A stretch of DNA of 64,000 bases, from positions 1,255,501 through 1,319,500 of the forward strand of contig NZ_AP014946.1 of assembly GCF_002355335.1 (NCBI RefSeq), given 5' to 3'. A model generated the notes under the pieces. That model was given only the letters and a program-made list of their open reading frames with translations. It searched no databases and had not been told where the DNA came from. Source of the stretch: Variibacter gotjawalensis. GTDB taxonomy: Bacteria > Pseudomonadota > Alphaproteobacteria > Rhizobiales > Xanthobacteraceae. Below, piece by piece: positions 26,733 to 34,493 of this stretch; the stretch's first letter is position 1; every line of letters begins with the position of its first letter. The position numbers and the translations under genes are program-made.

Positions 26733-26756
26733 GAAGTCCGACCAACTCAACAACGA

Positions 26757-26784
26757 AGGGCGCGGAGCAATCCGCGCCCTTTTT
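26757..26784 (+). terminator. Terminator of groESL
   Basis: AGGGCGCGGA and TCCGCGCCCT form a ten-bp perfect stem closed by a GCAA tetraloop, followed directly by TTTT. It lies 24 bases after the groEL stop codon. Confidence 0.95.
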
Positions 26785-26894
26785 CTTTGCGGTTTGGCCA
26801 AGAGGCTTAACGCCGGCGTAACAACGTATGGTTGTGCGATTCCAACTTTGGTAACGGCTGTCTGCTAGCGTCTCGGCCAACAATAAGGCTGGGG

Positions 26895-28718
26895 ATGCGC
26901 GGGTTTCTCTCACAACTGAGGCTGTGGAGCGCGGCTGTCGCGCGGCGACTGGCCGTGCTCGTCGTCGCGTTTGCGACGCCGGCGCTCGCGCAGGACGATA
27001 CCCCGGTCATTCGCTTCCAGCTCAACTGGGTCAACCAGGCGCAATTCGCCGGCTTCTACGTCGCCGAGGCGATGGGCTTCTATCAGCGCGAAGGCATCGC
27101 GGTGGAGTTCGTGCCGGGCGGTCCTGCCTTCCCTGGCGCGCCGATCCAAGACCCGCTGCTGATGCTTGAACTCGGCGGTGCGGACGTTGCGGTCGCTTGG
27201 ATGTCGAACGCCTTCGCGGCGCGCGCCAACGGCCTCGACGTTCTCAACATTGCGCAGGTTTTTCGCCATCCCGGCACGTCGCTGATCTGTCTGCGCGAGT
27301 CGGGCATCAAGCGTCCGGCCGACATCAAGGGCAAACGCATCGGCGTCTGGAACATCGGCGAGCAACTCAATCTCAGCTATTGGCTGCGTCAGCGCGGCAT
27401 GACGATGGACGACGTGACGACGATCACGCAGCGGCCGGACGGCGCCGATCTCATCGAGCGCACGCTCGATTGCGTGATGGCGATGTCTTACAACGAGTAT
27501 TGGACGCTGCTGGGCAAGTTCCGCCACGCCGATCTCTTCGTCGTTCGCTTCGGCGACGAAGGCAGCGCATTCCTCGAAGACGGGCTTTACGCGCGCGATG
27601 ACACCATCGCGGATCCCGTGATGCGCGATCGCTTGGCGCGTTTCGTTCGCGCCAGCGCCGACGGCTGGCGCTATGCGAAAGACAATCCGGAAGTCGCCGT
27701 CGCGGTAACGATGCATCGTGCGCCGGGCGCCGACGCGGTGCATCAGCGCCGTATGCTCGAAACCATCTTCGCGATCGCCGAACCGCATCGCGATTTCGGG
27801 CTGCTCGATCTCACGAGCTTCGGCCGCAGCGTCGATATTCTGGCCGACAGCTCGGACGCGAAAGCTGCCGCCGCGGCGCGCGTCGGCTGGACGCACGAAG
27901 TGTGGCGCGAGGCACATCGCAATTCTGGCCCCGTGCAACTTACGCCTGCCGCAAAGCACTATCTGGCACGCATCGTCGACTCGCCGTGGTTCTTCATCAT
28001 CGGCCTGACCGGAACGCTTGCCAGTATGGTCGGCGCATTCATGCGCGCCGTGCAGCGGCGTTACGATCTGTGGGGCGCGTTCATCCTGACGCTGCTGGCG
28101 ATCGGCGGCGGCACGCTGCGCGATCTTCTCGTCGGCGGCGATCGTCTGCCGCTCTTCATGTTCAAGGATCCGATCTACATCACGCTCATCGTGATGGTCG
28201 TCGTCTTCGGCACGGCGATCACGCGCTCGCTGTCCGACGCAGCACTCGATTCACGACGTTTCGCGGTGTGGCGCGAAACGTTCGACGCGGTCGGCGTTGC
28301 AACTTTCACGGTGCTCGGCACCAAAGTCGCGATCATCGCGGGACTGCCTTGGTATTGGGCGCCGTTCTGCGCCGCGCTGAGTTGCGCCGGCGGCGGCATG
28401 CTGCGCGACATCGTGACGGGGCGCGAGCCGCGCACATTCCTCGGTGAACCATACGAAGAGATCGCGGTGGTCGGCAGTCTCGCGCTGTTCGGCATGCTGC
28501 TGTTCGCCAGCCGCTACGAGCATGCGGATTGGATGGTGACCGCCGCAATCCTCGTGACGATGGTCAGCGTCTTCGCAGCGCGTATGTCGGTGGTGCTGCT
28601 CGGCTGGCGTTCGTATCGCCTCGGCTCGGCCGTCGAGGATCCGCCGATTGAGCCCACGGTTACGATTCTGCCGTCGCCTGTCGCGGCGCCGTCGCTAGAA
28701 TCGCAGAAAGTTGCGTAA
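26895..28718 (+). CDS. Periplasmic binding protein (NMT1/THI5-like) fused to a TRIC/UPF0126 channel
   Basis: A 607-residue fusion. Residues 1-33 are a signal peptide ending ALAQ. Residues 37-345 form an ABC-type binding-protein domain of the NMT1/THI5 type: FQLNWVNQAQFAGFYVAEAM (41-60), GFYQREGI and a GKRIGVW segment. Residues 364-573 are a complete TRIC-family channel domain of seven hydrophobic segments in two repeats, each with the diagnostic GGG-x-LRD (404-410 and 499-505). TRIC proteins are trimeric cation channels with an outside N-terminus; bacterial UPF0126 members include YadS-type glycine carriers. A secreted binding domain at the channel's outer end is thus topologically consistent. 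No ABC ATPase or permease lies nearby. The ATG at 26895 has AAGGCTGGGG before it; an upstream in-frame start would displace the signal peptide. Confidence 0.85.
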   Translation: MRGFLSQLRLWSAAVARRLAVLVVAFATPALAQDDTPVIRFQLNWVNQAQFAGFYVAEAMGFYQREGIAVEFVPGGPAFPGAPIQDPLLMLELGGADVAVAWMSNAFAARANGLDVLNIAQVFRHPGTSLICLRESGIKRPADIKGKRIGVWNIGEQLNLSYWLRQRGMTMDDVTTITQRPDGADLIERTLDCVMAMSYNEYWTLLGKFRHADLFVVRFGDEGSAFLEDGLYARDDTIADPVMRDRLARFVRASADGWRYAKDNPEVAVAVTMHRAPGADAVHQRRMLETIFAIAEPHRDFGLLDLTSFGRSVDILADSSDAKAAAAARVGWTHEVWREAHRNSGPVQLTPAAKHYLARIVDSPWFFIIGLTGTLASMVGAFMRAVQRRYDLWGAFILTLLAIGGGTLRDLLVGGDRLPLFMFKDPIYITLIVMVVVFGTAITRSLSDAALDSRRFAVWRETFDAVGVATFTVLGTKVAIIAGLPWYWAPFCAALSCAGGGMLRDIVTGREPRTFLGEPYEEIAVVGSLALFGMLLFASRYEHADWMVTAAILVTMVSVFAARMSVVLLGWRSYRLGSAVEDPPIEPTVTILPSPVAAPSLESQKVA

Positions 28719-28957: not shown

Positions 28958-29102
28958 AAGACTATAGTCCTGCGGCAACCTGCCGCTGGCGGCCTGCCAT
29001 GGCGTTGCCCGGATTGATCGCCATTTGCGGCAACCGGCGGCTGAACGTTGACCGCCGAACCAGCGACAAATGTGTCATAGTTCGCTGTCACGAAAGATAG
29101 CC

Positions 29103-29696
29103 ATGCGCCGCCTGTTAAAGCCGCTCTGGATCGTCCTCGCCGTCATCTTCCTCGCGGAAGCTTGGCTTTGGAGCCATCTGCAGCCGATCGTCGCCTGGAT
29201 CGTCAATCTCGTGTCGCTCCCGGCCGTTCGCGCGAAAGTCGCCGGCTGGATCGAAAAGCTGCCGCCGTGGGTAACGCTGTTCGTCTTCATCATCCCGGCC
29301 GTTTTGTTGTTTCCGATCAAGCTGCTCGGGCTCTGGATGTTGGCCAAGGGGTCTTGGCTCGGCGCGATGGCGGTGCTCGGCCTTGCCAAGGTGGTCAGCA
29401 TGGGCGTCACCGCCTTTATCTTCGAGGTGACGAAGCCGAAACTGCTGCAGATGGCCTGGTTCGCCTGGGCCTACGAGAAAGTGCTGGCTGGCTTGGCTTG
29501 GGCCCACCGCAACGTCGACCCGATCAAGGCGCGGTTGAAGGCATTCGCTCATGAGACCTTCGACCCGATCCGCCGCCGTGCACGCAAGTTGTTCTGGCTA
29601 ATGCGCGGCGAGCGCCGCGGCCGGTTCCTCCGCCGCCTCATGCGCATCCGTAAGCGGATGCAGACGACCGCGCCGGCCGCCCCACGCAGCGTCTAA
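29103..29696 (+). CDS. Membrane protein of unknown function with basic C-terminal tail
   Basis: A 197-residue protein with about three hydrophobic segments (7-25, 57-80 and 85-108), a Trp-rich helix (about 118-135, MAWFAWAYEKVLAGLAWAH) and an Arg-rich tail (about 155-190). The start at 29103 puts the first hydrophobic segment at the N-terminus; 11 upstream codons are open. No known domain is recognised. It is followed by a palindromic repeat and convergent with a 54-codon gene. Confidence 0.65.
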   Translation: MRRLLKPLWIVLAVIFLAEAWLWSHLQPIVAWIVNLVSLPAVRAKVAGWIEKLPPWVTLFVFIIPAVLLFPIKLLGLWMLAKGSWLGAMAVLGLAKVVSMGVTAFIFEVTKPKLLQMAWFAWAYEKVLAGLAWAHRNVDPIKARLKAFAHETFDPIRRRARKLFWLMRGERRGRFLRRLMRIRKRMQTTAPAAPRSV

Positions 29697-31415: not shown

Positions 31416-33068
31416 TCAGCGAGCGCCGGCGGCGCCGAAGCGGCTCTCGAAGCTGCCGGCCGGGACCACCGGGGTTGCGCCCGAAAGGGTCGGGGCTTGC
31501 GGCTGATCGCCCGCGGCGGCGGTCCGCTGCTGCGGCTTGGCGTCCGCCTTCTTGGGCTCGGGCTTCTTGGCAACCTCTTGCGGCTTCGCGTCGGGCTTCT
31601 TGGCCGGCTCAGGCTTTTTAGCAACTGCACGCTCCTCGCGGCGCGGTTGTGTCGAACCCGTGCGGGTGGGAGCGGGGCGCTGGGCCTGCTGCGGAGCAGG
31701 GGCCGCCGGGGCAGCGCCACCAAACCATTTGCCGACCGACTCGCGGCTATTGGTGATGAGGTTCGAGACGAAACCGGTGGTGCCCTCGCTCTGCGGGGCC
31801 GGTTGAGCATATGCGGTCGGCGGTGCGGAGACCGGCACGGCCGAGCGGACCGTACTGGTGCGGACCGAGGTTGCCGGTGCGGCTTGCGCGGTCTGCGAGC
31901 GGCCGGCGCTCTTCGGCGCGGGACGCGGGAAGGGAACACCCGATGCCGTGCCAGCGCTCGTCGTTTCGACGCTCTGCACCGGCTCGGCTTGCATCGTGGC
32001 TTCCGGAGCCGACGCAAGCGCGACCTGCTCGGGCGTCGACTCGCGATAGTCGAGCGGGCCCGCGAGCGGACGCTTTTCGACCTGAACACTGAGGCGGCCG
32101 CGTTCGTCGCGCACTTCGCGCGACGTGTAGATTTTCTCGAACGCCGGATGCATGCCGCCGTCGCGACCGCGATGCAGCGCGATCGTCGGCGTGTTCTTCT
32201 TCACGAAGTCCTGGAAGGCTTGATCGTCGCGCCGCGCCTTGGCTGACACTTCGCTCATGATGGCTTCCGGCACGCGATAAGCCGGGCATTTCTCCAAAGC
32301 CTTGTATTCGAGCGGCGCGCCGTTCGGCGACTCGCTGCCGTTGAACACATATTTCTTCTCGCAGACATCGACCTTCGGCTGCTGACGCGTGACTTCGAAG
32401 TGGTCGTAGCCTTCTTTCAGGTTTTTCCAGAAGGCGAGATGCGGCGAGTTGCGATGCTTCGCCATGTTCAGCGCCGTCATCCGGAACGGAAATGCCTGCA
32501 CCTGGAAGCCGCGTTGCCCCGCGAAGAATGCTTCGCGGCCGAGCGCGAAGATCTCGGCGATCTGTTCGTCCGTCATCGAGTAGCAACCGGACGACGAGCA
32601 ATCGCCGTGCACCATCAGATGCGCGCCGGTGCGGCCATGCGCACGATCGAACGCGTTCGGATAACCGAGGTTGAACGACAGATAGAAGCTGGAATTCGGG
32701 TTCATCATCGTCGGCGAGATCGTGTAGAAGCCTTCCGGCGCTTGCCGATCGCCTTCCTTGATCTTCGGGCCGAGCTGACCGGACCAGCGGCAAATCGGAT
32801 AAGTCTTCAGCAGCGCGAATTGGCCGGAAGCATCCTGCTTCCAAATTTCCATCTCGGCTTCTTCCTTGAAGACCCGGACGAGAACCGGGCTGCCCTTCGT
32901 CATCTGCTTGCGCTCGATCAGCGCGACAGTTTCGGCAGGCAGCGGTTTGAGATGTTTTGCCGAGTAAGGGCCGTCGACTTGGCAAGCCGATAGCGCCAAC
33001 GCGCATGCAAGCGCGGCAGCCGCCGGGAGCAACCCGACGCGGGCGCGAACGTAACCAAAGCTCATCAA
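31416..33068 (-). CDS. L,D-transpeptidase-like lipoprotein (YafK type) with long disordered tail
   Basis: A 550-residue lipoprotein. The lipobox LSAC puts the lipid on Cys29. The catalytic domain (about 60-240) has the YafK-like pattern ending VHGDCSSSGCYSM, with His154 and Cys162 as predicted catalytic pair. YafK relatives cut or form meso-diaminopimelate linkages in the cell wall. From about residue 330 to the end the protein is Ala/Pro/Lys-rich and probably disordered, reaching across the periplasm. The next gene upstream on the same strand is a related protein with an N-terminal anchor. A palindromic CtrA-like motif lies about 105 bases before the start. Confidence 0.85.
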   Translation of the reverse strand: MMSFGYVRARVGLLPAAAALACALALSACQVDGPYSAKHLKPLPAETVALIERKQMTKGSPVLVRVFKEEAEMEIWKQDASGQFALLKTYPICRWSGQLGPKIKEGDRQAPEGFYTISPTMMNPNSSFYLSFNLGYPNAFDRAHGRTGAHLMVHGDCSSSGCYSMTDEQIAEIFALGREAFFAGQRGFQVQAFPFRMTALNMAKHRNSPHLAFWKNLKEGYDHFEVTRQQPKVDVCEKKYVFNGSESPNGAPLEYKALEKCPAYRVPEAIMSEVSAKARRDDQAFQDFVKKNTPTIALHRGRDGGMHPAFEKIYTSREVRDERGRLSVQVEKRPLAGPLDYRESTPEQVALASAPEATMQAEPVQSVETTSAGTASGVPFPRPAPKSAGRSQTAQAAPATSVRTSTVRSAVPVSAPPTAYAQPAPQSEGTTGFVSNLITNSRESVGKWFGGAAPAAPAPQQAQRPAPTRTGSTQPRREERAVAKKPEPAKKPDAKPQEVAKKPEPKKADAKPQQRTAAAGDQPQAPTLSGATPVVPAGSFESRFGAAGAR

Positions 33069-33284: not shown

Positions 33285-34493
33285 TTACCGCTGAGCGAAC
33301 ATTCCAAGGAAGCTCGGATGCGTGCCGCCGTCGAGGCGGGTCGCCATCGTCGGCGCCAGCGGGGCAGCCTGCGTCTTCTTCGACAGCGCCGCGACTTGAG
33401 CAGCGTCCGCCTGCTTCTTGGCGGCAAGACGCGAGATCAGACTCGACGCTATGCGGTCGGCGCCGCAGCTTTGGCCGAAGCCGTAACGGCCGTTGCAGAC
33501 CTGAATTTGCGGTGGCTGCCGCGTCATCTCGAACAGGTCGTGGCCTTCCTTCAGGTTTTCCCAGAAGTCGATATGCGGCGAGTTGCGGTGCTTGGCGAAA
33601 TTGGCCGGGGTCATGCGGAACGGATAGGCCTGGATTTGGAACGCGGCCTGGCCGCCGTCGAACGCATCGTTGGCGAGTTGGAAGATCTCTTCGATCTGCG
33701 CGTTGGTCATCGCGTAGCAGCCGACCGATTTGCAGTCGCCATGCACCATCAGGAACGAGCCGGTGCGTCCGTGTGCGCGGTCATATGCGTTCGGGAAACC
33801 GACATTGAATGACAGGTGATAGGCCGAGTTGGGGTTCATCGCGCCCGGCGTCACCGCGTAGAAACCCTCGGGCGATTGCAGATCGCCGGTCTTCACTTTC
33901 GGGCCGAGCAGGCCCGACCAGCGGCAGATCGGATACGTCTTTAAGTGCACGTAGGAGCCGCTTTTCTCACGCTTCCAGACTTCAAGCTCTGCTTCCTGCT
34001 TGAAGATGCGCAGCATGATCGGAGCCTTCTTCTCGAGGCCCTTCTGCGCCATCAGCTGGCTTGCCGGAAGTTTGCTATGCGGCTGCGGCGTGAGCCCAGG
34101 CAGGTCCGCATGGATCATCGGCTGCGGTGCCGGCAGTGTTGCCGGAGCGGCAGCGACGCGATGCGGCTGCGGCGTCGCGGCGACGATCGGCGGGAAGGTG
34201 CTGGGTAGGGTCGCGTTCGGCACGATCGCGGACGGGTTCACCGCCATCAGCGGCGAAGGTTTCGGAGCGGGCAGCGGCGCGACGGTTGCGAGCTTGTCGG
34301 ATTTCTTCGAGGGCGGCTCGAGCAGGTTCAGCGCGCCGGTCGTCTCCGGATCGGTCGCCGCGACAGGCTTGCGCACCTCGTCGGCTGAAGGGAGCACGAA
34401 GAGGATCACATAGACCGGCGCCATAAAGGCAACGAGACAGACCGAAACGGCTCCGATGAGCCACATCAAGTCTTTGAACGAACGCGACGCCAA
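33285..34493 (-). CDS. L,D-transpeptidase-like protein (YafK type), membrane-anchored
   Basis: A 402-residue paralogue of the protein encoded next to it. A single N-terminal hydrophobic segment (about 11-35) anchors it, followed by a Pro/Ala/Thr-rich linker (about 38-150) and the catalytic domain (about 155-330) ending VHGDCKSVGCYAM, with His251 and Cys259 as the predicted pair. The two proteins align across the catalytic domain (KTYPICRWSG, NPNS, YDRAHGRTG) but differ in anchoring: this one by an uncleaved helix with the disordered part before the domain, the other by a lipid with the disordered part after it. Confidence 0.85.
   Translation of the reverse strand: MASRSFKDLMWLIGAVSVCLVAFMAPVYVILFVLPSADEVRKPVAATDPETTGALNLLEPPSKKSDKLATVAPLPAPKPSPLMAVNPSAIVPNATLPSTFPPIVAATPQPHRVAAAPATLPAPQPMIHADLPGLTPQPHSKLPASQLMAQKGLEKKAPIMLRIFKQEAELEVWKREKSGSYVHLKTYPICRWSGLLGPKVKTGDLQSPEGFYAVTPGAMNPNSAYHLSFNVGFPNAYDRAHGRTGSFLMVHGDCKSVGCYAMTNAQIEEIFQLANDAFDGGQAAFQIQAYPFRMTPANFAKHRNSPHIDFWENLKEGHDLFEMTRQPPQIQVCNGRYGFGQSCGADRIASSLISRLAAKKQADAAQVAALSKKTQAAPLAPTMATRLDGGTHPSFLGMFAQR

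Follow-up and report, generated by a model that had tools for sequence, protein, structure and literature searches.

We identified in Variibacter gotjawalensis a gene that joins, in a single reading frame, a substrate-binding protein of the NMT1/THI5 type to a TRIC (UPF0126) membrane domain, and this fusion is evolutionarily maintained in five lineages of two orders. It is real and old, and the protein is probably self-sufficient, because homologues occur in other genomes and the neighborhoods of their genes are unrelated. We tentatively favor, at a probability of roughly 45%, a single-polypeptide, ATP-independent, binding-protein-dependent permease, in which a solute would be captured and would then be passed to, or open, the TRIC pore. 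The gene lies in the window, by which we mean the whole 64,000-nucleotide stretch of DNA that was analyzed, and its features, in window positions, are as follows.

26755..26782, + strand: terminator-like hairpin 3' of groEL, 12 pairs and a T tail, a consensus match only
26895..28718, + strand: complete fusion gene, binding protein (NMT1/THI5 type) and TRIC, 607 codons plus stop
26895..26990, + strand: predicted signal peptide, residues 1-32, basic n-region and hydrophobic core, by sequence inspection
27000..27917, + strand: substrate-binding protein domain, residues 36-341, from the Pfam NMT1 core (49-268) and homologue alignment
27918..27980, + strand: linker, residues 342-362, with juxtamembrane helix LTPAAKHYLARIVD, conserved among fusions
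27981..28601, + strand: TRIC domain, seven transmembrane helices, residues 363-569, from PF03458 and the model
28104..28124, + strand: first GGG-x-LRD kink motif, GGGTLRD, residues 404-410, from the sequence
28389..28409, + strand: second GGG-x-LRD kink motif, GGGMLRD, residues 499-505, from the sequence

The original prediction, made from the letters of the sequence, was of one frame comprising a signal peptide, an NMT1/THI5 domain and a seven-segment TRIC domain with both GGG-x-LRD signatures. Pfam, alignment and a structural model agree that both domains are complete, and both signatures were found, at residues 404-410 and 499-505. The 607-codon frame (26895-28718, + strand) translates without an internal stop. 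A TTG at 26832 offers an alternative upstream in-frame start that would give a longer protein; the ATG at 26895 has AAGG upstream and coincides with the beginning of the predicted signal peptide. This signal-peptide-like N-terminus reads MRGFLSQLRLWSAAVARR-LAVLVVAFATPALA ahead of the putative cleavage site and QDD behind it, the placement of the site after ALA being a by-eye call.

Four other genomes encode homologues that span the full length and keep the order of the domains, and Pfam detects both domains in all four. The homologue in G068 (53% identity) comes from the same family as the window organism, those in G215 (46%) and G242 (40%) from another family of the same order, and that in G675 (L080) from another order, with 35% identity in the alignment. 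A frameshift or assembly error joining two genes had been set as the test that could overturn the prediction; such an artifact, or a decaying pseudogene fusion, is exceedingly improbable and is rejected because of these four full-length homologues, the frame being uninterrupted and the core motifs conserved in both halves. The source genome is a single contig. The NMT1-TRIC fusion is rare, being present in 2 of 150 relatives and in 3 of 397 genomes of the order. No match joining both halves was found in 274 gammaproteobacterial genomes, and no place on plasmids covered 80% of the query. Viral contigs carry TRIC relatives, those read having no binding domain, and they yielded no relatives of the binding domain. 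A link to anti-phage defense was considered and dropped, as there was no PADLOC match.

The gene adjoining the fusion in the window is groEL, and the hairpin between the two suggests that the fusion is its own transcription unit. No evident partner gene adjoins the fusion in G242. Going by names read from translations, the neighbors elsewhere are a dehydratase and an aminotransferase gene (G068), a leuA-like gene and a gene for a GGDEF protein (G215), and HU- and Lon-like genes (G675). An operon partner was therefore rejected, the window having none, with the terminator-like hairpin after groEL, and the other four fusions lacking a shared neighbor. Around all five fusions, no cognate ABC permease or ATPase genes were seen, which supports the earlier suggestion that the protein may act without an ABC ATPase. 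These unrelated neighborhoods argue that the protein probably works alone. Downstream of the fusion in the window is a gene (29070-29696, + strand) for a hydrophobic 208-residue protein with no Pfam match. The window also holds a neighboring pair of YkuD-type L,D-transpeptidase genes on the - strand (31416-33068 and 33285-34493), the first of which encodes a long low-complexity C-terminal tail.

The TRIC half matches PF03458 (UPF0126/TRIC, whose present Pfam name is Gly_transporter) in two stretches with an E value of 1.9e-21 and 76.1 bits against a curated cut-off of 23.5. The protein was modeled with AlphaFold2 (m4a0037362d65) from a shallow 10-sequence alignment, giving a mean pLDDT of 61.5. 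Values in the TRIC part are mostly 75-92; the binding half was modeled poorly, and we therefore draw no docking from the model. The modeled helices (364-387, 392-413, which is kinked, 426-445, 454-481, 488-507, 520-538 and 545-569) match those of solved TRICs, and Foldseek gives the TRIC half a TM-score of 0.88 against the Rhodobacter sphaeroides TRIC 5h36_E. The break of TM2 at GGG is visible in the helix list, and the modeled linker forms a helix at 351-361 before TM1 starts at 364. The first GGG-x-LRD motif is near-invariant across 31 aligned TRIC rows. By alignment, the SsTRIC gate residues D97, F104 and Y153 correspond to D464, F471 and Y520 and are mostly kept, and the SsTRIC plug-latch R137 corresponds to R504 (28404-28406) of the window protein. 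Every one of the 26 other aligned TRICs has Arg at this position, and the five NMT1 fusions have R, L, S, R and L.

Crystallized prokaryotic TRICs are trimers, and prokaryotic TRICs have a positive-inside orientation, to which the topology determined for E. coli YadS conforms (PMC5477506). The window protein has 11 K+R on its predicted inside loops and tail versus 3 on its outside loops, a charge bias that predicts an N-out TRIC. The original prediction placed the binding domain in the periplasm on such an N-out TRIC, and the signal peptide together with the charge bias points to the same location.

The binding half matches Pfam NMT1 (PF09084) at residues 49-268 with an E value of 1.4e-37 and 130.2 bits (curated cut-off 20.5), and it matches ThiY (3ix1) with an E value of 1.4e-11. 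The domain is complete, since ABC homologues of about 40% identity align over nearly its whole length, and its best-scoring relatives are stand-alone proteins of 36-45% identity. In six of the eight ABC-relative neighborhoods that were read, the binding-protein gene lies beside dihydropyrimidinase or dihydropyrimidine dehydrogenase genes. In G133, G129, G117, G128 and G102, it accompanies genes for an ABC ATPase, a dihydropyrimidinase, and a Zn-dependent amidohydrolase. Its G338 counterpart adjoins genes reading as dihydropyrimidine dehydrogenase, and in G026 and G126, ABC genes alone are evident. Curated models back the names of the G133 dihydropyrimidinase, the G133 amidohydrolase, and the G129 methylmalonate-semialdehyde dehydrogenase. 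Across the mature domain, 42 positions hold the same residue in every one of the five fusions and in 16 or more of 17 ABC relatives, among them W45, Q48, Q50, W102, YNE (199-201) and EDG (228-230). The NMT1 half thus arose out of the ABC binding proteins of pyrimidine catabolism or alongside them, a point absent from the original prediction. In the tree of binding domains, the ABC relatives cluster in a clade of their own (96/90), separate from the fused forms; the five fused domains may or may not be one clade (43/0), and branches are long.

An identity as the THI5 HMP-P synthase was also considered. In the alignment to 4esx and 4esw, the latter an H66G mutant, the position of His66 is occupied by N105 and that of Lys62, which we take to be the PLP lysine of THI5, by A101. 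Because the catalytic His is replaced by Asn105, the fusion is not a THI5 enzyme. The presence of the same pyrimidine operon in the fusion genomes was likewise rejected, as their dihydropyrimidinase homologues show 30-41% identity and a close permease is absent; permease homologues there reach at most 37% identity, versus 61% between two true partners.

A wider pattern, absent from the original prediction, is that of a TRIC subfamily with two kinds of binding domain. When the class was searched with the TRIC part, the nearest relatives in other Alphaproteobacteria were mostly long frames with an N-terminal half of the SBP_bac_3 type, identified by Pfam in all four tested and by alignment in the others. 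This set comprises 20 sequences from at least 14 alphaproteobacterial genomes, at the following loci.

L066:2001-3713 (G104), L081-L093 and L097-L102: SBP_bac_3-TRIC loci, in genomes that are often small (0.9-2.6 Mb)

The conserved Arg and Asp, which in this family bind the carboxylate and the amino group of an amino acid, respectively, are kept in 20/20 of these sequences. The occurrence of SBP_bac_3-TRIC beside NMT1-TRIC makes the binding-protein-TRIC fusion a recurrent architecture. In the TRIC tree, the NMT1 fusions fall into a single clade (97/95), and the SBP_bac_3 fusions share a different branch with a small number of stand-alone TRICs. The two kinds of fusion may have arisen independently or through an exchange of the binding domain. 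Two SBP_bac_3-TRIC genes stand close together on the same strand at G588:C1:754917-757359, G691:C2:19466-21965 and G636:C12:224525-226954. In G056 (L073:154-1542 and 1698-2429), a putative histidine kinase gene is closely followed by the gene for an SBP_bac_3-side TRIC that has no binding domain.

In the permease that we favor, the binding domain would sit in the periplasm above the outer opening of the TRIC pore, with three such domains to a trimer, and would capture a small solute with high affinity. Via the short linker into TM1, the solute would be presented to the pore, or the pore would open beneath it, and the solute would enter without ABC subunits. For SBP_bac_3 members, the ligand would probably be an amino acid, which fits the genetic link of UPF0126 to glycine use. 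For NMT1 members, including the window protein, it would probably be a small compound of the pyrimidine pathway or something related, a guess that we hold loosely because it comes from the gene neighbors of the nearest ABC homologues.

A permease is consistent with two complete domains conserved at full length across five lineages and two orders, with the unrelated fusion neighborhoods, and with the retention in 5/5 fusions of positions common to the ABC homologues. The ligand-binding Arg and Asp of all 20 SBP_bac_3 members and the mostly kept TRIC gate residues point the same way. UPF0126 genes matter for the use of glycine in 11 bacteria (reviewed in PMC12173739), and TAXI-GltS offers a precedent, a binding protein joined to a transporter that is not of the ABC type (PMC12344293). 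However, the pore constrictions of crystallized TRICs measure 0.7-2.0 Å (PMC5401562) and a purified prokaryotic TRIC gave single-channel currents (PMC5477506), so the pore would be too narrow for a pyrimidine unless rearranged. Moreover, the known SBP-dependent secondary transporters are believed to use an elevator mechanism (PMC12344293), which is not obvious for TRIC. The attachment of two unrelated binding-domain classes to one TRIC subfamily would also suit modular gating.

Alternatively, the fusion may be a ligand-gated cation channel, in which closure of the receptor would open a K+-conducting TRIC pore and the ligand would not be moved, as in GluR0 with an unrelated pore. This reading is possible and ranks close behind the favored permease. 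One prokaryotic TRIC formed ion channels in bilayers (PMC5477506), the SsTRIC pore is narrow and plugged by Tyr (PMC5401562), and in GluR0 a K+ pore is coupled to a domain with the binding-protein fold (PMC6385376). Two binding-domain classes on the same TRIC subfamily are what interchangeable sensors might look like, and the linker is short and conserved. The plug-latch Arg is replaced in three of the five NMT1 fusions and is Arg in 26/26 other TRICs, but the window protein retains R504. A gated channel also sits less easily with the glycine-use genetics of UPF0126 in 11 bacteria (PMC12173739), and no conserved signaling partner is found near the fusions.

An unlikely third option is that the binding domain acts as a tethered scavenger or allosteric regulator, raising the local ligand concentration or tuning an ordinary TRIC (for K+ or glycine) with no direct hand-over. 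Gram-negative Alphaproteobacteria have a true periplasm, which makes tethering unnecessary for retention, and a short, conserved linker also argues against it. On its side, TRICs with no binding domain at all are complete, and tethering is the explanation offered for the TAXI-GltS fusions of Firmicutes (PMC12344293).

No description of a binding-protein-TRIC protein turned up in the literature searched, the 2011 TRIC survey of Silverio and Saier lying outside its reach; that survey reportedly mentions fused domains. Similar to the prokaryotic TRIC/UPF0126 proteins (RsTRIC 5h36, SsTRIC 5wtr, CpTRIC 5wuf and E. coli YadS), the window protein has seven helices, two GGG kinks, the gate residues, and the fold. 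Known prokaryotic TRICs consist of about 210 residues and the transmembrane domain alone (PMC5477506), whereas the window protein adds an N-terminal binding protein and signal peptide. The binding half resembles NMT1/THI5-type ABC binding proteins encoded near pyrimidine-catabolism genes; it is about 40% identical to them along its full length and has conserved positions in common with them. These ABC relatives are separate proteins encoded beside ATPase and permease genes, whereas the fusion is solitary and has its own membrane domain.

The arrangement also recalls TAXI-GltS of Lachnospiraceae and the BP0402/BP0403 pair of Bordetella pertussis, with an N-terminal binding protein and a C-terminal non-ABC transporter (PMC12344293). 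TAXI and GltS, however, are other families, and GltS is modeled as an elevator dimer, whereas TRIC is a small trimeric channel fold. Before TAXI-GltS was described in 2025, TRAP and TTT alone were known as binding-protein-dependent secondary transporters (PMC12344293). The membrane part of the fusion is TRIC, not TRAP, TTT or GltS, and we do not claim its membership of the SBP-dependent secondary transporters. In GluR0 and the ionotropic glutamate receptors, a binding-protein fold is likewise coupled to a cation pore (PMC6385376). Their pore, however, has an inverted K+-channel fold and splits the binding domain into which it is inserted, whereas the binding domain of the window protein is continuous and followed by a C-terminal TRIC. 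The chances seem to us evenly balanced that the binding-protein-TRIC fusions of Alphaproteobacteria make up a class, not described before, of channels or transporters that are operated by a binding protein and independent of ATP, with two unrelated binding-domain classes on one TRIC subfamily and three receptors per pore trimer.

The cargo of prokaryotic TRICs is unsettled, with bilayer work pointing to cations and genetics to glycine. A natural pore wired to a ligand-specific binding domain makes it testable whether the ligand is carried or gates the pore. The authors of the TAXI-GltS work suggested that such transporters may need an elevator mechanism, an idea that further classes would put to the test (PMC12344293); a TRIC-based case, if true, would be a direct test. 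Such a case would also add a second natural way of joining a periplasmic-binding-protein fold to a cation pore, beside that of the glutamate receptors.
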